The position numbers and the translations under genes were made by a program. A stretch of DNA of 64,000 nucleotides, from contig CAMKNZ010000001.1 in NCBI GenBank assembly GCA_946414315.1, positions 62,001 to 126,000 of the forward strand. Reading direction: 5' to 3'. Source of the DNA: an uncultured Clostridia bacterium (GTDB taxonomy: Bacteria; Bacillota; Clostridia; Christensenellales; Aristaeellaceae). Below are positions 43,278 through 52,885 of this stretch, piece by piece; positions within the stretch are counted from its first letter, which is position 1; each line of letters opens with the position of its first letter. The notes below the pieces were generated by a model that saw only the letters and a list, made by a program, of their open reading frames with translations, searched no databases and was not told the DNA's origin.

Positions 43278-44498
43278 ATGGACCAACTGAAACACCGCAA
43301 AGCTGAGGCAAAACTTCAGATCCTCAATCCCGACGGTTCCCCGGCGGCCGGACGTTCCGTCCGCGTGGACCAGGTCTCCCATCAGTTCCTTTTCGGCTGC
43401 GGCGCGTTTGACACCGTGGAAATCATGAAAACAGACGATGAAAAGAAGCGCGCCTTCCTGCAGGAACGTATGGAAAAATGGCTGGGGCTGTTTAACTACG
43501 GCACCCTTCCCTTCTACTGGGGCCGGTATGAACCCGTAGAGGGCCGGACCGCCTATACCGAGACCATGGCGGCCGCCCGCTGGCTGCGGGAAAAGGGCGT
43601 TACCGTCAAGGGACACCCGCTGTGCTGGCACACCGCCTGCGCCCCGTGGCTCATGCAGTATTCCAACGAAGAGATTCTCCGCCGCCAGATCGAACGGATC
43701 CACCGTGATATGTCCGCCTTCAAAGGCGTGATCGGACTGTGGGACGTGATCAACGAAGTCGTGATCATGCCGGTCTTCGACAAGTATGACAATGCAATCA
43801 CCCGCGTCTGCAAGGACCTGGGCCGCGTCGGCATCGTGAAGGAAGTCTTCGCCGCCGCGAAGGAGACCGATCCGGACGCTGTGCTGCTCATCAACGATTT
43901 CAACACCAGCAAGCATTATGAAGACCTGATTGAAGACCTGCTGGAAGCCGGTGTTCCCATCGGCACGATCGGAATCCAGAGCCATCAGCATCAGGGCTAC
44001 TGGGGACTGGAGAAACTCAACGACGTCCTGGAACGTTTTTCCCGGTTCGGCCTGCCCATCCATTTCACTGAGAATACCCTGATCTCCGGCGACATCATGC
44101 CCGCGCACATTGTCGACCTGAACGACTGGCAGGTGGACGAATGGCCAAGCACGCCCGAAGGCGAAGAGCGCCAGGCCCGGGAGATCTCGGAAATGTATAC
44201 CGTGCTGTTCAGCCATCCGCTGGTGGAAGCCATCACGACCTGGGACTTCAACGATGGCTGCTGGCTGAAAGCGCCCTCCGGCTTCGTGCATGAAGACAAC
44301 AGCATCAAACCCTCCTATGAAGCGCTGAAACAGCTGATCCACGGAGACTGGGAAACCCACGAAGTCCTGACTGCTGACGCTGAAGGGTTCGTATCCTTCA
44401 CCGGTTTCAGGGGCGGTTATTCCGTACAGGCTGATGCAGAAAAAGCCGGCTTCACGCTGAATAATAACCTGTGTGAAAAACTGATCCTGAAAGCATAA
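43278..44498 (+). CDS. GH10 endo-beta-1,4-xylanase, cytosolic type
   Basis: 406 residues. Typical GH10 motifs: KGHPLCWHTACAPWL, WDVINEV (acid/base Glu), IGIQSHQHQGYW, IHFTENT (nucleophile Glu) and TTWDFNDGCWLKAP. A beta-rich segment of about 25 residues precedes the barrel, and a C-terminal extension follows it. There is no signal peptide, so it should cleave imported xylo-oligosaccharides. AGGAGG lies 8 bases before the start. The Glu-Asn-Thr nucleophile context is a variant of the usual TELDI. Confidence 0.92.
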   Translation: MDQLKHRKAEAKLQILNPDGSPAAGRSVRVDQVSHQFLFGCGAFDTVEIMKTDDEKKRAFLQERMEKWLGLFNYGTLPFYWGRYEPVEGRTAYTETMAAARWLREKGVTVKGHPLCWHTACAPWLMQYSNEEILRRQIERIHRDMSAFKGVIGLWDVINEVVIMPVFDKYDNAITRVCKDLGRVGIVKEVFAAAKETDPDAVLLINDFNTSKHYEDLIEDLLEAGVPIGTIGIQSHQHQGYWGLEKLNDVLERFSRFGLPIHFTENTLISGDIMPAHIVDLNDWQVDEWPSTPEGEERQAREISEMYTVLFSHPLVEAITTWDFNDGCWLKAPSGFVHEDNSIKPSYEALKQLIHGDWETHEVLTADAEGFVSFTGFRGGYSVQADAEKAGFTLNNNLCEKLILKA

Positions 44499-44514
44499 AG
44501 GAGATATCGCATCC

Positions 44515-46125
44515 ATGCATTCCCAGCCGTCTGTTTTCCGCATCAATCAGTCAGGTTATGCCACAGGGCTGCCGGTGACTGCCGCCGTACTGGGAGACGG
44601 GCCTGTCATCCTGAAAAACGCAGCGGGAGAAACCCTCCGCAGCATTGATTATGACACGCCGCAAACCGATCCCGCCTCCGCGGACAAGGTTGCGCTGGTG
44701 AACCTGGGCGTCCTGGCGGAAGGAAACTATGTGCTTGAATGCGGGAACGCCAGCCGTCAGCTGACCGTATGCTCCTCCCCCTGGAACACAGTGACCCACA
44801 CGCTGATCAAAGGCCTGTATTACCAGCGGTGCGGCTGCGGTCTGCTGCCGGAGCATGCAGGCGTTTACGCTCATCCGCCGTGCCATACGGCTCCCGCGCA
44901 GGAATGGACGGATCAAAGCGTCAGCCGCAGGATCACCGGCGGCTGGCACGATGCCGGGGATTACGGCAAATACGTCGCTCCCGGGGCCGTTACAGTGGCG
45001 CATCTGCTGTATACCTGGAAGCTGTTTCCGCAGGGATGCGGAGACGATCTGAACATCCCTGAGACCGGGAACGGCCTTCCGGATATTCTCAATGAAGCTC
45101 GGTTTGAACTGGAATGGATCCTGCAGATGCAGCGTTCCGACGGCTCGTTCCACCATAAGCTGACCAAGTCGCATTTTGCGGCCTTTATCATGCCTCAGGA
45201 CGACCTGGAACAGGAATATCTCATGCCTGTATGCTGGTGCGCGACGGCGGACGCCGCCGCCTGCCTGGCGCTGGCTTTCCGGGTATACCATTCCTTTGAC
45301 GAACCCTTTGCCAACCGTATGCTGCTGGCTGCGAAGCATGCCTGGACATGGCTGCAGGCGCATCCTGATTTCGTGCCCTTTATGAATCCGGAAGGGGTCC
45401 GCACAGGCTGGTACGGCGGCCGGAGCGATATCAGCAACCGGTTCTGGGCAGCCTGCGAGCTCTTTGCATCCACCGGGGAAGACGCATACCGTCTGGCGGC
45501 GGAGAAATTATATACGACGAACCTGAACCTGACCGAATTCGGCTGGATGGAAGTCGGCGGTCTTGGCGCTCTGTGCTGCCTGACCGATCTGAAGGATCAC
45601 GCCGGCGACGTACTGTATAACCGGCTGAAAGAAGACTTCCTCCGCCGGAGCGAAGAAGCGCTCACCCTGTCCCATGACTCCGGCTACGGAACATCCATCG
45701 CTCCGGACCGGTATATCTGGGGAAGCATCCTGCCGGTCATGAGCCATGCCATGGCGATGATCATCAATACGATCCTCACCGGGAGACAGGATATGCGGGA
45801 CGCCGCCCTGCTGCAGTGGCATTACGCCCTGGGCATGAACGCCATGGACCTCTGTTTTGTCACCGGGTTCGGAGAAAACACCGTATTGCATCCCCATCAC
45901 CGTCCCTCCGGCGCGGACGGTATCGAAGCGCCGGTTCCCGGGCTGATCTCCGGCGGGCCGAACAAATGCTTCTGCTATCCCCAGACGAAGGAAAAACTCA
46001 GGCCTGACACGCCCCCGGCCAAATACTTCCTGGACGAGACGCCTTCCGCCGATACCAACGAGATTGCGATCTACTGGAATTCTCCGGCGGTCTTTGTCGG
46101 AGCATACTTCAATTCGCCTTCCTGA
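44515..46125 (+). CDS. GH9-family glycoside hydrolase
   Basis: 536 residues. An N-terminal Ig-like domain (about 1-85, starting FRINQSGYATG) precedes the alpha6/alpha6 barrel. Active-site pieces are ITGGWHDAGDYGKYV (nucleophilic-water Asp pair), HHRPSG, and DTNEIAIYWNSP (acid Glu near the end). This is the CelD-like or cellodextrinase plan. No signal peptide is seen, which suggests action on imported cello- or glucan oligomers. Last gene of the alcohol dehydrogenase-led operon, 16 bases from GH10. Confidence 0.92.
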   Translation: MHSQPSVFRINQSGYATGLPVTAAVLGDGPVILKNAAGETLRSIDYDTPQTDPASADKVALVNLGVLAEGNYVLECGNASRQLTVCSSPWNTVTHTLIKGLYYQRCGCGLLPEHAGVYAHPPCHTAPAQEWTDQSVSRRITGGWHDAGDYGKYVAPGAVTVAHLLYTWKLFPQGCGDDLNIPETGNGLPDILNEARFELEWILQMQRSDGSFHHKLTKSHFAAFIMPQDDLEQEYLMPVCWCATADAAACLALAFRVYHSFDEPFANRMLLAAKHAWTWLQAHPDFVPFMNPEGVRTGWYGGRSDISNRFWAACELFASTGEDAYRLAAEKLYTTNLNLTEFGWMEVGGLGALCCLTDLKDHAGDVLYNRLKEDFLRRSEEALTLSHDSGYGTSIAPDRYIWGSILPVMSHAMAMIINTILTGRQDMRDAALLQWHYALGMNAMDLCFVTGFGENTVLHPHHRPSGADGIEAPVPGLISGGPNKCFCYPQTKEKLRPDTPPAKYFLDETPSADTNEIAIYWNSPAVFVGAYFNSPS

Positions 46126-46171: not shown

Positions 46172-46200
46172 TTGAAAAAGCCGCTGCAATCTGATATACT
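46172..46200 (+). promoter_or_regulatory. Sigma-A promoter of the TIR receptor-like gene
   Basis: TTGAAA and TATACT are 17 bases apart and follow the GH9 terminator at once. The start at 46251 would give a leader of about 45 bases. Confidence 0.75.
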
Positions 46201-46250
46201 TCACTTTGATAAAGACAAAGCCATACAGACCGAAAGCGAGGGACCGTTCC

Positions 46251-49166
46251 ATGATCTCCACACAGTATTCGGCTTTCATCAGCTACCGCCATCAGACGCC
46301 CGACCAGGAGATTGCAAAAAAGCTGCATCACCTGATCGAAACCTATTCCGTTCCCTCCGCGCTGCGGACGGACGGAGCCCGGCATCCCGGCAAGGTGTTC
46401 CGCGACCAGGAAGAACTTCCGCTTTCTTCTGATCTGGGCAGGGATATCGAGGCCGCCCTGGATAACAGCGACTGGCTGATCTGCATCTGTTCCCCGCGTT
46501 ACCTGGAGAGCCGGTGGTGCCAGCGCGAACTGGAATACTTCATTGAGCACAAGGGACGGGACCGCGTCCTGACCGTACTGGCAGAGGGAGAACCCCAGGA
46601 CAGCTTCCCGGAATTGCTGCGTTTTGAAACAGACGAAAACGGAAATCAGGTCGAACGGGAACCGCTGGCCGCAGATGTCCGCAGCACGGATCTTGCAGAA
46701 AGTCTGAAAAAACTGAAAAAAGAAAAATACCGGATTCTCGCGCCGATGGTCGGGACTTCCTTCGACGGACTGTACCAGCGGCAGCGCAGGAGAACCATGC
46801 GGAACGTCCTGGCTGCCGCGCTGGCCGCGGTCGCAATCCTGGGCGGCTTCCTCACTTACGCGCTGATCCAGAATGCGAAGATCACCGAGCAGAACGAACA
46901 GATCAAAGCCCAGAATGAAAAGATCAGCACCCAGAATGCCGAACTGACCGAAAAGAATAAAAAGATCGAGACACAGAATACCGAGCTTTCGGAGAAAAAC
47001 GAGCAGATCGAAACACAGAATGCCGAACTGACGAAGAAAAACGCTCAGATCGAACAGCAGAACACCGAGCTTTCGGAGAAAAACGAACAGATCGAAGCGC
47101 AAAATACACAGCTGACCGAAAAAAACGAGCAGATCGAAACACAGAATGCTGAGCTGACAAGGAAAAACGAACAGATTGAACAGCAGAACACCGAGCTTTC
47201 GGAGAAAAACGAACAGATCGAAGCGCAAAATACGCAGCTGACCGAAAAGAACGAGCAGATCGAAGCACAGAATATCCGGATCGAGGAAGAACGGATCACC
47301 GCTGCCCGGAATGAATGCGATCTGCTGGTTGAAAAATCCATATACTACTCTTCCGTCAACCGGAAAAACGAAGCGACCCGTCTTGGTCTGGAAGCGCTTG
47401 CCGTTTCCGAAACGCTGGACGGATACGCGAAAGACAGTATCCGGGAAGCGCTCGCCGTTTCCTGCTCCATGGGCGATTTCGCCGTGGAAGCGGAGCTGGA
47501 TTTCCCCGGCATTGTGAATTATGACCCGTCCTGCTGCTTCTCTCCGGACGGCTCGAAGCTGGCAGTCGCTGATTCCCGTTCCGGCCTGTCACTGTGTGAC
47601 ACGGTAACCGGCGAGCGTCTGTGGGTCTCTTCTCCCTTCAGCCACGATATCACGTCCGTCCGCTGGAAGGAGGACAGTTCCCTGCTGGTCGTCACCGCCC
47701 AATGGGGCCATACGGTTTGCCTGGTTGACGCGGCCACCGGAGAACACCTGAAGGAACTCTATATCCCTTGGGCCAGCAACGCGGTTTTTGACGGGGACAA
47801 TGTGCTTATCGCCTTTGCGCAGGGTATTATCAAATGGGAAACCGCTGTCAGTGACGAAAATTTCCCCTGGGTCTACCAGGTTGACGAGGACCAGCACGCC
47901 ACTTCAAAATGTCTTCTGAACGAGCGGTTCATCTCCTTCTGTCAGGGGATTACCTTCACGAAACCCCGCATCTTTGTCAAGGAAAAAGGATCGGATGAGG
48001 CCTTTGTCACAGAACTGGAAAGCAGCAAGGTTGTCAGCGGATACACCCTGTCTCCGGACGGAGAATGGATCTTCGTCCATCAGTACGATCAGTGTATGGT
48101 CATTAACCTGCGCACGGATGAGATCCGGTGGCAGATCACCCGGGAGGAGGGCCTCTTCACCGGCTCGGACTGCGGACCGGTCTGGACCGGCAATATCATC
48201 CTCGACTGCGGAAAAGCATATGACGCCATGACCGGCGAAGTGCTTTATGACACGAAAAACCAGGCCTATGTCGGCGTCTTCCCGGACGGACAGTTCTTTG
48301 CCGATTCCGAAGCTGTTTACCGCCTGTCGGACGGCAGCTGGTTTGCCGATATCCCCGGAAACCTGAAAGCGATCGATCCTACCGGGAAACATCTGGTTGT
48401 GTACCACACCCTGGAATACGGGCGCGGCGCCCCGGGCAATCCGGATGCACTTATTTCCCGGAAACAGACCGCATATCTGGAAAAGTCTCCCGGAACCGGA
48501 AGCCAGTATATGGCAGAGCAGTATGACGGCACAGTCCTGGATATTCCTGATTTCACGGAACCGGAGCATGAAGAAGGAACGATCCTCGCGCTGAACGATC
48601 CCTACGGAACCGCCAGTACATCCGGTTATCTGCAGGCGAAGTCTTTCTTCAGTCCCAACAACGGCCGGTATTATCTGGTAATCAACCAGGGCGCCTATAT
48701 CCCGATCTACGACCTGGAAAAAAGCAATGAGCCTTCCTTCCGGATCTACGACTTCAGCGTCGGAGATCATGTGGAAGCAAAAGACGTCGGCTTCTCCGCA
48801 GACGGGCGTCTTGCAGCCATAACCGGCGCAAACGGGCAGGTGGCAGTCTATGAACTGGAAACCGGCAGTATGGTCTGCTCCTTCACCGATACTTATCTGG
48901 CACGATCCCTGTCCGATGTCAGGTTCAACGCAGGCAGCAGCCATCTGATGGTAGCGGATTTCAATCTGAGCAGCTTCCGTATCTATTCAGTGACCAACGG
49001 CCAGACGCTGTATGTGATGCACGCGGTGAAAGAAGTAGATTCCTGGGGTTTTGATGAACAGACCGGCGACGCCGTCGTGAAGTATACGGACGGCAGCGCG
49101 CTGATCGCCCGGATGTTTGAGGATGAAGAAACGCTGCTCAGCTATGCCCGGGAAAACGTGAAATAA
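46251..49166 (+). CDS. TIR-transmembrane-coiled-coil-beta-propeller protein
   Basis: 971 residues from the ATG at 46251 (GAGGGA 7 bases before); the TTG at 46206 lies at the expected transcription start and is excluded. TIR domain (about 1-170): YSAFISYRHQ, RDQEELPLSSDLG, and SRWCQRELEYF, whose Glu is at the catalytic position of TIR NADases. Four Arg precede one TM (about 186-206), predicting TIR inside and the rest outside. A coiled coil of about 19 heptads (about 210-346), a helical link, and a WD40/quinoprotein-like propeller follow (FSPDGSKLAVA, LSPDGEWIFV, FSADGRLAAITG). It is solitary. The cofactor, ligand and downstream effect are unknown. Confidence 0.88.
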   Translation: MISTQYSAFISYRHQTPDQEIAKKLHHLIETYSVPSALRTDGARHPGKVFRDQEELPLSSDLGRDIEAALDNSDWLICICSPRYLESRWCQRELEYFIEHKGRDRVLTVLAEGEPQDSFPELLRFETDENGNQVEREPLAADVRSTDLAESLKKLKKEKYRILAPMVGTSFDGLYQRQRRRTMRNVLAAALAAVAILGGFLTYALIQNAKITEQNEQIKAQNEKISTQNAELTEKNKKIETQNTELSEKNEQIETQNAELTKKNAQIEQQNTELSEKNEQIEAQNTQLTEKNEQIETQNAELTRKNEQIEQQNTELSEKNEQIEAQNTQLTEKNEQIEAQNIRIEEERITAARNECDLLVEKSIYYSSVNRKNEATRLGLEALAVSETLDGYAKDSIREALAVSCSMGDFAVEAELDFPGIVNYDPSCCFSPDGSKLAVADSRSGLSLCDTVTGERLWVSSPFSHDITSVRWKEDSSLLVVTAQWGHTVCLVDAATGEHLKELYIPWASNAVFDGDNVLIAFAQGIIKWETAVSDENFPWVYQVDEDQHATSKCLLNERFISFCQGITFTKPRIFVKEKGSDEAFVTELESSKVVSGYTLSPDGEWIFVHQYDQCMVINLRTDEIRWQITREEGLFTGSDCGPVWTGNIILDCGKAYDAMTGEVLYDTKNQAYVGVFPDGQFFADSEAVYRLSDGSWFADIPGNLKAIDPTGKHLVVYHTLEYGRGAPGNPDALISRKQTAYLEKSPGTGSQYMAEQYDGTVLDIPDFTEPEHEEGTILALNDPYGTASTSGYLQAKSFFSPNNGRYYLVINQGAYIPIYDLEKSNEPSFRIYDFSVGDHVEAKDVGFSADGRLAAITGANGQVAVYELETGSMVCSFTDTYLARSLSDVRFNAGSSHLMVADFNLSSFRIYSVTNGQTLYVMHAVKEVDSWGFDEQTGDAVVKYTDGSALIARMFEDEETLLSYARENVK
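46881..47285 (+). repeat. Heptad-coding tandem repeat with a 126-bp duplication
   Basis: About 19 units of 21 bp encode heptads of the form xxNxxIE/xxNxxLT. The last twelve fall into two nearly identical 126-bp blocks (47034-47159 and 47160-47285), differing at only a few bases. It is an in-frame minisatellite inside the coiled coil, able to change stalk length. Confidence 0.85.
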
Positions 49167-49174
49167 AGGCGGAA

Positions 49175-49427
49175 AAAATAGGCAAGCCCTTGCTGACGCA
49201 AGGGCTTTGTTTGATTTATTTTATTCAAATCGTTTATCCCCCCGTCTTCCGGTAGGGACCGCTGTACCGGGTCTCCTTTGCCGCTCCGGATCTACCCTCT
49301 TGCCATGAGCGCCTCCGGCCGGTCACCGAACAGCTTCCGACGGATTCCTGATACCTTTTCAGGGTCTCCTCTCTTCTTTTCACCTCCCTGTTTCTGCGCT
49401 TATTCTGAAACGTTCTTTTTCTTTGTG
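49175..49427 (-). ncRNA. Candidate small transcript between TIR gene and tcdA
   Basis: A consensus promoter (TTGACA-17-AATAAT) opposite the TIR gene gives a transcript of about 240 bases ending at a hairpin with a T6 tail. It contains several stems, such as CAGGG/CCCTG and CCGGTA/TACCGG. A 49-codon GTG ORF (49234-49383) lies inside, but its start touches AGGGAGG with no spacer. I cannot place it in a known RNA family. Confidence 0.4.
49184..49207. terminator. Bidirectional intrinsic terminator
   Basis: AAGCCCTTGC pairs with GCAAGGGCTT (10 bp, 4-nt loop); T-rich on the plus side and TTTTTT on the minus side. Serves the TIR gene and the candidate small transcript. Confidence 0.8.
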
Positions 49428-49511: not shown

Positions 49512-50255
49512 TCAGATTCCTTTGTTTTCACGGCCGGCAGCGCACAGGTCTTTAATCACTTCCCCGGCGATAATCAGTCCCGCCGCCGCAGGCACGAAAG
49601 CCGTGGAACCGGGGATATCCCGGCGGCTGCTCCCGGGTCTCTCATCTGCGGGGATTTCACCGAGGGGCCTGGTCGGCGTCTCCCTTGAATAGACCACCTT
49701 CAGCTTTTTTATTCCTCTCCTGCGGCATTCGGTGCGCATCACCCGGGCCAGCGGACATACGGAGGTCTGATAGATATCGGCAACCCGGAATGCCGTGGGA
49801 TCCAGTTTGTTCCCCGCGCCCATGGCGCAGATGATGGGCGTACCGGCCGCCTGCGCCTTCTCCGCCAGGGCCAGCTTGCCCTTTACCGTATCGATGGCGT
49901 CCACTACATAGTCGTATTGCGAAAAATCGAACTGATCCTCCGTTTCCGGCAGGAAGAATGTTTTGTATGTTGTCACACGGCAGTCCGGATTGATATCCCG
50001 GATCCGCTGTTCTGCCACGTCCACTTTATACTTTCCCACGGTGCTGTGCGTCGCGTGCAGCTGCCGGTTCAGGTTGGTCAGGCATACCTTGTCGTCATCG
50101 ATCAGATCCAGCGCGCCGATGCCGGAACGGGCCAGCGCTTCCACCGCATATCCGCCCACGCCGCCGACCCCGAAAACCGCCACGCGGCACTGCGCAAGGT
50201 ATTCCATTGCTTCGGGTCCCAGCAGCAACTGTGTCCTGGAAAACTGGTTCAGCAT
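49512..50255 (-). CDS. tcdA: tRNA threonylcarbamoyladenosine dehydratase (TcdA)
   Basis: 247 residues of the ThiF/E1-like fold. The ATP loop is VFGVGGVGGYAVEALARSGIG, the adenylation site has DDDKVCLTNLNRQLHA, and a DAIDTVKGKLAL segment follows. It converts t6A37 in ANN-decoding tRNAs to the cyclic hydantoin form. CsdA/CsdE-type partners are not nearby. Cytosolic and monocistronic. Confidence 0.92.
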   Translation of the reverse strand: MLNQFSRTQLLLGPEAMEYLAQCRVAVFGVGGVGGYAVEALARSGIGALDLIDDDKVCLTNLNRQLHATHSTVGKYKVDVAEQRIRDINPDCRVTTYKTFFLPETEDQFDFSQYDYVVDAIDTVKGKLALAEKAQAAGTPIICAMGAGNKLDPTAFRVADIYQTSVCPLARVMRTECRRRGIKKLKVVYSRETPTRPLGEIPADERPGSSRRDIPGSTAFVPAAAGLIIAGEVIKDLCAAGRENKGI

Positions 50256-50426: not shown

Positions 50427-51401
50427 ATGAGCGAACAGCGCAGGCCCCTGGTTTCCCACATTTTCACCGCGGATCCCTCCGCCCATGTGTTCAACGGAAA
50501 GCTCTATATCTATCCCTCCCACGATATTCCCCACGACGGAGAGGATAACGACGACGGCGACGAGTATCGCATGGAGGATTACCACATCCTGTCCATGGAC
50601 AACCCGGACGCGCCCTGCGTGGATCACGGCTGCGCCCTCCACATGAAGGACATTCCCTGGGTCAGCAAGCAGATGTGGGCACCGGACGCCGCCGAAAAAG
50701 ACGGCAAATACTATCTGTATTTCCCCGCCCGGGACAAAGACGGCATCTTCCGTCTCGGCGTCGCCGTATCGGACGATCCCGCCGGTCCCTTTACGCCTGA
50801 AAAAGATTATATTCCCGGCAGCTACAGCATTGACCCCGCCGTGCTGATGGACGACGACGGCCGCGGCTATGTATACTACGGCGGCCTGTGGGGCGGCCAG
50901 CTGGAAATGTGGCAGAGCGGAAGTTTCGATCCGGACGCTCACCGGCCCGAAGGCAGCGAGCCCGCTCTCGGACCGATGTTCGCGGAACTGGATCCGGACA
51001 TGAAGCACTTTAAGACCGAACCGAAACACCTGCAGATCCTGGACGAAAACGGCAGCCCCCTCACCGCCGGCGATGAGGACCGCCGCTACTTCGAAGGCCC
51101 CTGGATGCACAAGTTCAACGGAAAATATTACCTGTCCTATTCCACCGGCACCACCCACTACCTGGTTTACGCCGAAGGCGACAAGCCGGACGGCCCCTTC
51201 ACCTACAAGGGCCGGATCATGGAACCCGTACTCGGCTGGACCACCCATCACTCCATTGTGGAGTATCAGGGAAAATGGTACCTGTTCTATCATGACTGTG
51301 AGCTGTCCAACGGGATCAACCACCGCCGCAATGTAAAGTTCACCGAGCTGACCATCCATGAGGACGGCACAATTGATACCATCCGTCCTTACGAAGCATG
51401 A
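50427..51401 (+). CDS. GH43-family glycosidase (xylosidase/arabinofuranosidase type)
   Basis: 324 residues of five-bladed propeller. Active-site residues of GH43: Asp in FTADPSAHVF (base), Asp in SYSIDPAVLMDDDG (pKa modulator) and Glu in RYFEGPWMHKF (acid). Start follows AAAGGAG. No signal peptide, so it is presumably cytosolic and splits imported arabinoxylan fragments. Its TGA overlaps the next gene start as ATGA. Confidence 0.92.
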   Translation: MSEQRRPLVSHIFTADPSAHVFNGKLYIYPSHDIPHDGEDNDDGDEYRMEDYHILSMDNPDAPCVDHGCALHMKDIPWVSKQMWAPDAAEKDGKYYLYFPARDKDGIFRLGVAVSDDPAGPFTPEKDYIPGSYSIDPAVLMDDDGRGYVYYGGLWGGQLEMWQSGSFDPDAHRPEGSEPALGPMFAELDPDMKHFKTEPKHLQILDENGSPLTAGDEDRRYFEGPWMHKFNGKYYLSYSTGTTHYLVYAEGDKPDGPFTYKGRIMEPVLGWTTHHSIVEYQGKWYLFYHDCELSNGINHRRNVKFTELTIHEDGTIDTIRPYEA

Positions 51402-52885
51402 CTGCCATAAAAAGCGCCGTCCGCCGGGCGGCGCTCTTTCTGTTGATCCTGCCGTTACTGGCGATCTGTGCAAAAGGAGAGGAAACCGAAATGAGCACCG
51501 TTCCCGTTACCCTGCAGAAATCCTACAAGAAAGCCTCCGAAAACAATCCGCTCTATACCCAGCGTTTCGGTGCCGATCCGGGCGTCATGGAGTATAACGG
51601 CCGGCTGTATGTCTACATGACCGACGATCTCCTGGAGTATGACGGCAAAGGCAACGTAAAGGAAAACTCCTACCAGCAGATCAGGACCATCAACTGCATT
51701 TCCTCGGACGACCTGGTCAACTGGACGGATCATGGAAAGATCTATGTCGCCGGTCCGAGGGGCGCCGCCACCTGGGCGGCCCACTCCTGGGCTCCCTGCG
51801 CAGCCCATAAAACGATCGACGGAAAAGAAAAGTTCTTCCTGTATTTCTGCAACGGCGGAGACGGCATCGGCGTGCTGTGCGCCGACAGCCCGGTCGGTCC
51901 CTGGCGGGATGAGCGGGGCAGTCTGCTGATCACCCGTGCCGTTCCGAACTGTGCCGACGTTACCTGGCTGTTCGATCCCGCCGTCATGGTGGATGAAGAC
52001 GGGACCGGTTATCTTGCTTTCGGCGGCGGCATTCCGGAAGGGAAACAGAGCGCGCCCGGTACCGGACGCATCGTAAAGCTGGCGGATGACATGATCCACA
52101 TTGACGGAGAACCGGTCCGGTTGGACGTTCCGTGGCTGTTCGAGGATTCCGGTATCAACCGGATCGGGGATAAGTATTACTATACCTACTGTTCCAACTT
52201 CATGACCAAAGGCAACGACATGAAAATCACGGACGGCGCGATCCAGTATATGATTGCGGACGATCCGCTGGGACCCTATACCTATATGGGCGAGCTCTTC
52301 CCCAATGAAGGACATTTCTTCGGAATGTACGGCAACAACCATCACTCTCTCGCCTGCCTGAACGGCGAATGGTACCTGTTCTATCATAACCGTCCCGTGG
52401 AAAAGGCCATGGGGATCACCGGCAACTACCGCAGCCCGCAGGCGAACCGGATCTTCTTTGGAGAGGACGGCCTGCCGAAACAGGTGAAGGGCACCATGAA
52501 AGGGCTTGATCAGCTGAAGCCGGTGGATCCGTTCCATACGGTCTCCGCCTCCACCATGTCCCATCAGGCCGGAATCACGGTCTACGGCGCCGACGGCAGA
52601 TCCTGGATCACCGGTGAAGCCGGCAGCTGGATCCGGATCTCCGGCGTGGATTTCGGAACGGAAGCCGCTGCCTTGGCCATCACGGCCATGGCGCCGACGG
52701 ACTGCACCGTCTACGCAGTCCTGGATGATCCGGACGGTTCCGTCGTCTCTCAGGTCCGGATCAGCATCCCGGATGACGGTCAGCCGGCAGCCTTCTCCGC
52801 GCCGATCCGGGCGGAGGGCGTCCACGATCTGTACCTGATCACGGACGGACCGATGAAACTGTTCTCCTGGATCGTCAAAAAGTAA
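51398..52885 (+). CDS. GH43-family glycosidase with C-terminal beta domain
   Basis: 495 residues from the ATG at 51398. Catalytic region (about 45-360): RFGADPGVMEYNG (base Asp), WLFDPAVMVDEDG and LFEDSGINRIGDKYY (acid Glu). A C-terminal CBM6-like beta domain follows (about 390-495). Starting at 51398 gives a signal peptide-like end (AALFLLILPLLAICA), so it would be exported. A second start at 51491 has GGAGAGG 8 bases before and would be cytosolic; a hairpin overlaps the first codons. Related to arabinan- or xylan-acting enzymes. Confidence 0.85.
   Translation: MTAIKSAVRRAALFLLILPLLAICAKGEETEMSTVPVTLQKSYKKASENNPLYTQRFGADPGVMEYNGRLYVYMTDDLLEYDGKGNVKENSYQQIRTINCISSDDLVNWTDHGKIYVAGPRGAATWAAHSWAPCAAHKTIDGKEKFFLYFCNGGDGIGVLCADSPVGPWRDERGSLLITRAVPNCADVTWLFDPAVMVDEDGTGYLAFGGGIPEGKQSAPGTGRIVKLADDMIHIDGEPVRLDVPWLFEDSGINRIGDKYYYTYCSNFMTKGNDMKITDGAIQYMIADDPLGPYTYMGELFPNEGHFFGMYGNNHHSLACLNGEWYLFYHNRPVEKAMGITGNYRSPQANRIFFGEDGLPKQVKGTMKGLDQLKPVDPFHTVSASTMSHQAGITVYGADGRSWITGEAGSWIRISGVDFGTEAAALAITAMAPTDCTVYAVLDDPDGSVVSQVRISIPDDGQPAAFSAPIRAEGVHDLYLITDGPMKLFSWIVKK

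Follow-up and report, generated by a model that had tools for sequence, protein, structure and literature searches.

TIR signalling in bacteria is known as an internal alarm. The locus described here raises the question of whether a bacterial TIR domain can also be fixed in the membrane and report on the outside of the cell; if the protein does span the membrane and face outward, it would be a bacterial counterpart of surface immune receptors. The window, i.e. the whole stretch of DNA analysed (64,000 nucleotides from an uncultured Clostridia bacterium), holds an open reading frame at positions 46251-49166 (+ strand) that encodes a 971-aa protein, with a start codon backed by the alignment of relatives. 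Its domains follow in the order TIR, Arg-rich stop, one transmembrane (TM) helix, coil, helical hairpin and tandem WD40-type propellers. The initial annotation had described this frame as a receptor-like TIR protein with an outward stalk and a beta-propeller; the observation was confirmed by our analysis, and the interpretation taken overall was partly supported.

Domain architecture and membrane topology

The gene is preceded by a promoter (TTGAAA, 17 nt, TATACT, with a TG ahead of the -10; positions 46172-46200, + strand; 10/12 matches in a consensus scan) and followed by an intrinsic terminator with a 10-pair stem (49184-49207, +); it is therefore its own transcription unit, as had been claimed. 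A likely ribosome-binding site, agcgaggga, was read from the sequence at 46235-46243 (+), 7 nt upstream of the ATG at 46251. Hemicellulose enzymes (GH10, GH9 and two GH43) are encoded on both sides of the gene, at 43278-46125 and 50427-52885, and a ThiF-family (TcdA-like) protein is encoded on the opposite strand at 49512-50255 (-), divergent from the GH43 genes.

The TIR domain, which is predicted to be cytosolic, covers residues 5-127 (46263-46631, +). Residues 9-115 match the Pfam family TIR_2 (PF13676) with 54.5 bits against a cut-off of 28, and the structure prediction that the initial annotation had put forward as a check gave a confident TIR fold in AlphaFold2 (pLDDT mostly >85). The predicted catalytic Glu, Glu-93 (codon 46527-46529, +; SRWCQREL), is part of SPRYLESRWCQREL and corresponds, in an alignment, to the WC..EL Glu of the plant L6 TIR domain. 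The profile match, the fold and this alignment together bear out the earlier reading of an N-terminal TIR domain with an NADase-type Glu. Glu-93 is retained in 109/111 unique relatives and the surrounding pocket residues are likewise invariant in 109/111, which speaks against a catalytic pocket that is inactive in all homologues, a possibility that had been raised. The domain is thus likely to be active as an NADase or cyclase, a prediction strongly supported by the 111 relatives. At two loci (L060 and L086), TIR-TM genes stand in tandem with one copy lacking the catalytic Glu, which suggests that active and inactive TIR domains may form mixed complexes.

The alignment of relatives defines a family-specific linker, EPLAADVR...LRILAPMVGTSFDGLYQ, and the Arg-rich stop-transfer sequence QRQRRRTMRN (together 46632-46811, +). 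Directly after it comes the single TM helix, residues 188-206 (46812-46868, +), recognized by hydropathy and in the relatives; these 19 residues have a mean hydropathy of 2.16, and the hydropathy scan found no second strong hydrophobic segment elsewhere in the 971-aa protein. The single TM helix described before thus stood, although the Arg residues ahead of it are five rather than four (QRQRRRTMR). It recurs in 109/111 unique relatives, which answers the earlier concern that a TM helix might be lacking. In all of the 109 TM-bearing relatives, the 15 residues before the helix carry more Lys and Arg than the 15 after it (means 6.0 vs 2.3), so the earlier assignment of the TIR end to the cytosol by the positive-inside rule holds; a second TM helix is absent from all 109. 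As far as sequence decides, this charge bias and the lack of a second helix indicate a single-pass, TIR-inside topology. In addition, paralogs in the same genome have a Pro/Thr-rich stalk after the same TM helix, and such stalks are typical of exported regions. The cysteine content of the propeller (1.9%, not depleted, compared with an average of 1.4% in exported-like proteins of the same genome) does not favour an external position and speaks, if anything, slightly against it; cysteine exclusion was uninformative as a topology test and was dropped. Overall, an inward TIR domain and an outward propeller are strongly supported across the 111 relatives, the external location of the propeller being a prediction.

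A predicted external coiled-coil stalk of 144 aa follows (residues 207-350; 46869-47300, +). The coil had been described with about 19 heptads; it is indeed present, with the count corrected to 20. Position 'a' is Asn in 20/21 cases and position 'd' is Ile or Leu in 20/20, and the underlying DNA is a 42-bp tandem repeat inside a 126-bp higher unit. A conserved helical hairpin (47301-47483, +; pLDDT ~90) leads into tandem WD40-type beta-propellers, the predicted extracytoplasmic sensor (residues 412-953; 47484-49109, +). The AlphaFold2 model, built from 23 aligned sequences and with a mean pLDDT of 83, shows a continuous helix at 171-288 and 296-368 through the TM segment and the coil, then the hairpin and an all-beta region at 412-953. 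Several Pfam WD40/beta-propeller families match across residues 420-920, and the Foldseek matches are tandem WD40 propellers, e.g. Pwp2, Aip1 and Apaf-1, in agreement with the C-terminal propeller noted initially.

Distribution and variation of the family

The initial annotation had treated this architecture as exceptional; it belongs instead to a large Clostridia-wide family. A scan of GTDB genomes gave at least 584 confirmed relatives, and a class-level search found a relative in 43/391 genomes. The best 80 of these at least 584 relatives are nearly all from Bacillota, many of them from the gut or rumen. When the TIR-TM part was used as a query against 150 genomes of the same family, 26 were positive, in 15 of 50 genera. 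The search of Clostridia for the same domain order and its neighbours, as had been proposed, thus revealed widespread relatives as well as the recurrent partner genes described below.

Orthologs share 65-84% identity in the TIR domain and linker and 36-68% in the ectodomain, a difference that fits the expectation for a sensor. Against the 144 aa found here, the stalk reaches 221 aa in one ortholog of the same genus and shrinks to 46 in another and to 11-16 across the other members of the group; the coil is therefore an expandable spacer, and the same range of lengths among close orthologs rules it out as the key functional part. Across the relatives, the TIR-TM module is constant and is joined to propeller, Sel1, LRR or YD-like repeat ectodomains. 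In one TIR-TM protein (L064:4018-8598), YD-like repeats (FGTDGEP...YDENGN) make up an ectodomain of 1.3 kaa. The genome of the window itself has, on contig C12 (L006:3411-16625), four tandem proteins of 373, 461, 1361 and 2191 aa with a TIR or TIR-like domain, a TM helix and a Pro/Thr stalk. Pfam finds an LRR ectodomain in three of the four, and only the 461-aa protein has a TIR domain above the Pfam cut-off together with the Glu; the other three TIR domains look degenerate. In a same-genus genome, a TIR-like-TM-LRR gene (1876 aa) overlaps a SLOG-TM gene (L173:8147-15365).

Partner genes and RyR ligand residues

The ORFs flanking the relatives were compared all against all, and a partner was counted if it lay within 2.5 kb. 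Three kinds recurred: RyR-domain proteins, a SLOG-TM protein (~540 aa) and a DHH-DHHA1 phosphodiesterase. The RyR partners take the forms K+ channel-Rossmann-like-RyR, TM-Rossmann-RyR and HD-RyR, and there are also stand-alone RyR proteins. An RyR-type match was found at 26 of the 106 unique TIR-TM loci, or 24 after discounting two RyR-model matches (L094, where Pfam shows an ion channel only, and L089, a similar short ORF treated alike). SLOG-TM was found at 7/106 and DHH at 24/106, one of the latter being weak; 53/106 loci had no partner within this distance, and for 22 of those 53 the flanking sequence is short on one or both sides. RyR and DHH never occurred together at any of the 106 unique loci, which may reflect lineage. 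The initial annotation had stated that no defence gene lies beside the receptor gene; this is correct within the window, yet misleading, as the TIR-TM genes of relatives adjoin RyR-channel, HD-RyR, SLOG-TM and DHH genes.

The association of RyR with TIR-TM genes also appeared in an independent PF02026 scan of the same 150 genomes, which found RyR in 17 genomes at 18 places, 10 of them adjoining a TIR-TM gene; the chance adjacency per RyR place is ~0.1% by a rough count (~37 TIR-TM places in ~420 Mb). At the genome level, TIR-TM is present in 20 of 25 genomes with any RyR and in 6 of 125 others (Fisher p = 2.7e-15), and in 7 of 8 genomes with SLOG-TM against 19 of 142 others (p = 1.6e-5), both p values being inflated by shared ancestry. 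The RyR/TIR-TM co-occurrence data span 15 genera.

Several of these loci have a distinct organization. At L063, L066-L069 and L129, a K+ channel-RyR gene, a TM-Rossmann-RyR gene and a TIR-TM-ectodomain gene (Sel1 in L063 and L066-L069) form an operon, which is a candidate NAD-nucleotide-gated channel system in bacteria. L177:345-9419 holds, in one row, SLOG-TM, a 1020-aa protein with a Ser/Thr-kinase-like start, a 740-aa TIR-like protein and HD-RyR. DHH-DHHA1 lies directly beside many Lachnospiraceae TIR-TM copies, at a median distance of 35 bp; at ~23 loci among L100-L148 (Lachnospiraceae and others), it adjoins the TIR-TM gene and has an extra C-terminal region. This neighbour is possibly a messenger-removing enzyme.

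The channel-RyR partner has a TVGYGD filter and matches Ion_trans_2 (51.5 bits) and RyR (37.1 bits) in Pfam. A stand-alone RyR partner matches PF02026 with 112 bits, and one stand-alone RyR protein matches animal ryanodine receptors, with at most 78 bits per domain. The phage protein RyDEP holds 2'/3'cADPR through H75, W78, H100 and D117 (PMC13232231, preprint). In 9/9 channel-RyR partners, H, W, H and D occur at exactly +0, +3, +25 and +42, matching these ligand residues; this conservation could have failed, and it supports a cADPR-type nucleotide as the predicted ligand of the channel-RyR partners. Among the non-channel RyR partners, most keep HxxW and many have the second H with insertions, with several lacking the second H or the D. 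The HD-RyR family scores below the Pfam cut-offs (member L088: HD 20.2 against 22; RyR 13.7 against 27.4), the AlphaFold2 model of HD-RyR is weak (pLDDT 66) and a structure search with that model gave no significant PDB match, so the RyR membership of this family rests on a profile-profile comparison with channel-RyR (E = 2.9e-8).

The window itself holds no RyR, SLOG or DHH partner gene, and no partner lies in cis beside the two nearest orthologs (L039 and L070). In a close ortholog (L041; 68% identity in the TIR domain), a TM-Rossmann-RyR gene follows after 18 bp in the same orientation, and in another (L071) such a gene is divergently placed. A single HD-RyR gene is present in the genome of the window, with 63% identity to its L088 counterpart; it lies on the opposite strand beside the TIR-TM-LRR cluster on contig C12 and was found by protein search, the PF02026 profile giving no match in this genome. 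SLOG-TM was not found in this genome, which is 60% complete. A same-genus genome carries a complete TIR-TM-WD40/SLOG-TM/HD-RyR operon (L051), with the ortholog of the window protein standing as an orphan elsewhere (L039). Because of this arrangement, the simplest reading, which we infer for the window copy, is that the orphan receptor shares a partner in trans; the gene for that partner would lie outside the window, and the HD-RyR gene on contig C12 is the candidate.

Proposed signalling route, alternatives and related systems

The RyR, SLOG and DHH neighbours argue for a nucleotide messenger rather than, or besides, simple NAD depletion. At a probability of roughly 60%, we propose an outside-in receptor whose TIR domain makes an NAD-derived nucleotide that is read by RyR/SLOG effectors. 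The tandem propeller, held outside on the coiled-coil stalk, would bind an external ligand or be clustered by it, and the change would pass through the coil and the single TM helix so that cytosolic TIR domains are brought together. With Glu-93 as the catalytic residue, the assembled TIR domains may then turn NAD+ into a nucleotide, for which an isomer of cyclic ADP-ribose is the likeliest candidate. Cytosolic RyR/SLOG partners would sense this nucleotide and open a channel or activate a different effector, either membrane-bound or with an HD domain, and its removal may fall to a DHH or HD phosphohydrolase. The ligands suggested in the initial annotation (a wall fragment, polymer or phage) gained no support and are speculative; the role of the receptor might lie in phage defence, envelope sensing or competition. 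We hold more tentatively, at somewhat less than even odds, that Clostridia possess a large class of such outside-in TIR receptors, with an NAD-derived cyclic nucleotide gating RyR-domain K+ channels as a bacterial cADPR-RyR axis, and with swappable external sensors (propeller, LRR or Sel1) on variable stalks.

It is unlikely that the TIR domains, clustered by an outside cue, simply destroy NAD+ and thereby kill or arrest the cell with neither messenger nor partner. The retention of the catalytic Glu in 109/111 relatives suits such an NADase, as does the lack of a nearby partner for the window copy and at 53/106 loci; however, some of these 53 loci are cut by contig ends, and both the recurrent RyR, SLOG-TM and DHH neighbours, all nucleotide-linked, and the genome-level co-occurrence of RyR with TIR-TM (20/25 vs 6/125) tell against it. 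A still less probable alternative is a membrane scaffold, in which a non-catalytic TIR domain would build a signalling complex by recruiting other TIR proteins, as in Toll-like receptors. Mixed complexes of this kind would accord with the tandem TIR-TM genes of which some lack the Glu (L060, L086 and three of the four paralogs in L006), but Glu-93 and the pocket residues, invariant in 109/111, would be needless in a pure scaffold. The adjacent GH10, GH9 and two GH43 genes might point to an envelope or nutrient sensor linked to hemicellulose use. We consider this highly improbable and rejected the link, since the receptor gene has its own promoter and terminator and none of the flanking GH genes recurs at any of the nine orthologs compared.

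A different kind of claim concerns the purpose of the receptor and is compatible with the messenger-producing receptor that we favour, namely that it is a Thoeris-type anti-phage receptor that responds at the cell surface to phage particles or to injection. This purpose is possible but doubtful. Thoeris and the phage proteins that antagonize it rely on the same pairing of TIR with SLOG/RyR logic (PMC11204291, PMC13232231), and the sensor here evolves fast. On the other hand, no phage link was found in our analysis, and PADLOC gave neither the receptor nor its partners a fitting model; the PADLOC/NCBIfam matches to the receptor were set aside as coil artefacts (JetC, SMC) or weak TIR matches, and these collections gave no defence model for the partner proteins. 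Moreover, one studied Thoeris TIR protein senses phage capsid proteins and not an external cue (PMC12578639).

The component parts are of known kinds. In the literature searched, no report of a TIR membrane receptor paired with RyR channels turned up, and an earlier genomics prediction is possible; the 2015 work of Burroughs and Aravind on nucleotide-centred conflict systems reportedly discusses SLOG, TIR and RyR. As in Thoeris (ThsB TIR with ThsA SIR2-SLOG or TM-macro), the TIR domain is the presumed nucleotide maker, some relatives have SLOG-bearing partners and the partner may be a membrane protein. Unlike in Thoeris, the TIR domain is membrane-anchored and linked to a predicted external sensor, and the partners are RyR channels, HD-RyR, SLOG-TM and DHH proteins; no SIR2 or macro domain was found among the partners scanned, and no ThsA-type effector with SLOG or macro lies beside the receptor in the window. 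As for CBASS TIR-STING, the protein and the ten flanking ORFs scanned gave no STING or CD-NTase Pfam match. Bacterial TIR-STAND-WD40 proteins likewise have an N-terminal TIR domain and a C-terminal WD40 propeller; here, in contrast, Pfam finds no NTPase domain (STAND/NB-ARC) between the two, and a TM helix and coil take its place.

Toll and Toll-like receptors likewise have a single TM helix, a cytosolic TIR domain and an external repeat ectodomain, the last being predicted here and LRR in the same-genome paralogs. The order is reversed here, with the TIR domain N-terminal and the ectodomain, a propeller rather than LRR, C-terminal, so the initial description of a receptor turned end-for-end relative to Toll-like receptors was a fair one; the TIR domain also carries a catalytic Glu instead of serving adaptor recruitment. 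The reversed domain order and the interchangeable propeller and LRR sensors would represent an independent solution. With phage RyDEP (PF02026), the channel-RyR domains adjacent to relatives share the residues that hold 2'/3'cADPR (PMC13232231), although these RyR domains belong to bacterial channels and, in other partners, HD proteins beside TIR genes and not to phage antagonists. The proposed route would share the logic of the animal axis of SARM1/CD38, cADPR and the ryanodine receptor, in which an NAD-derived nucleotide acts on a cation channel with RyR domains; the present system differs in being bacterial, in its K+-channel pore (TVGYGD) and in a TIR domain that is itself part of a transmembrane receptor. 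Direct action of cADPR-type nucleotides on RyR domains has long been disputed, and the pairing of a TIR enzyme with an RyR-domain K+ channel that has the cADPR-binding residues makes this dispute testable in a small bacterial operon.
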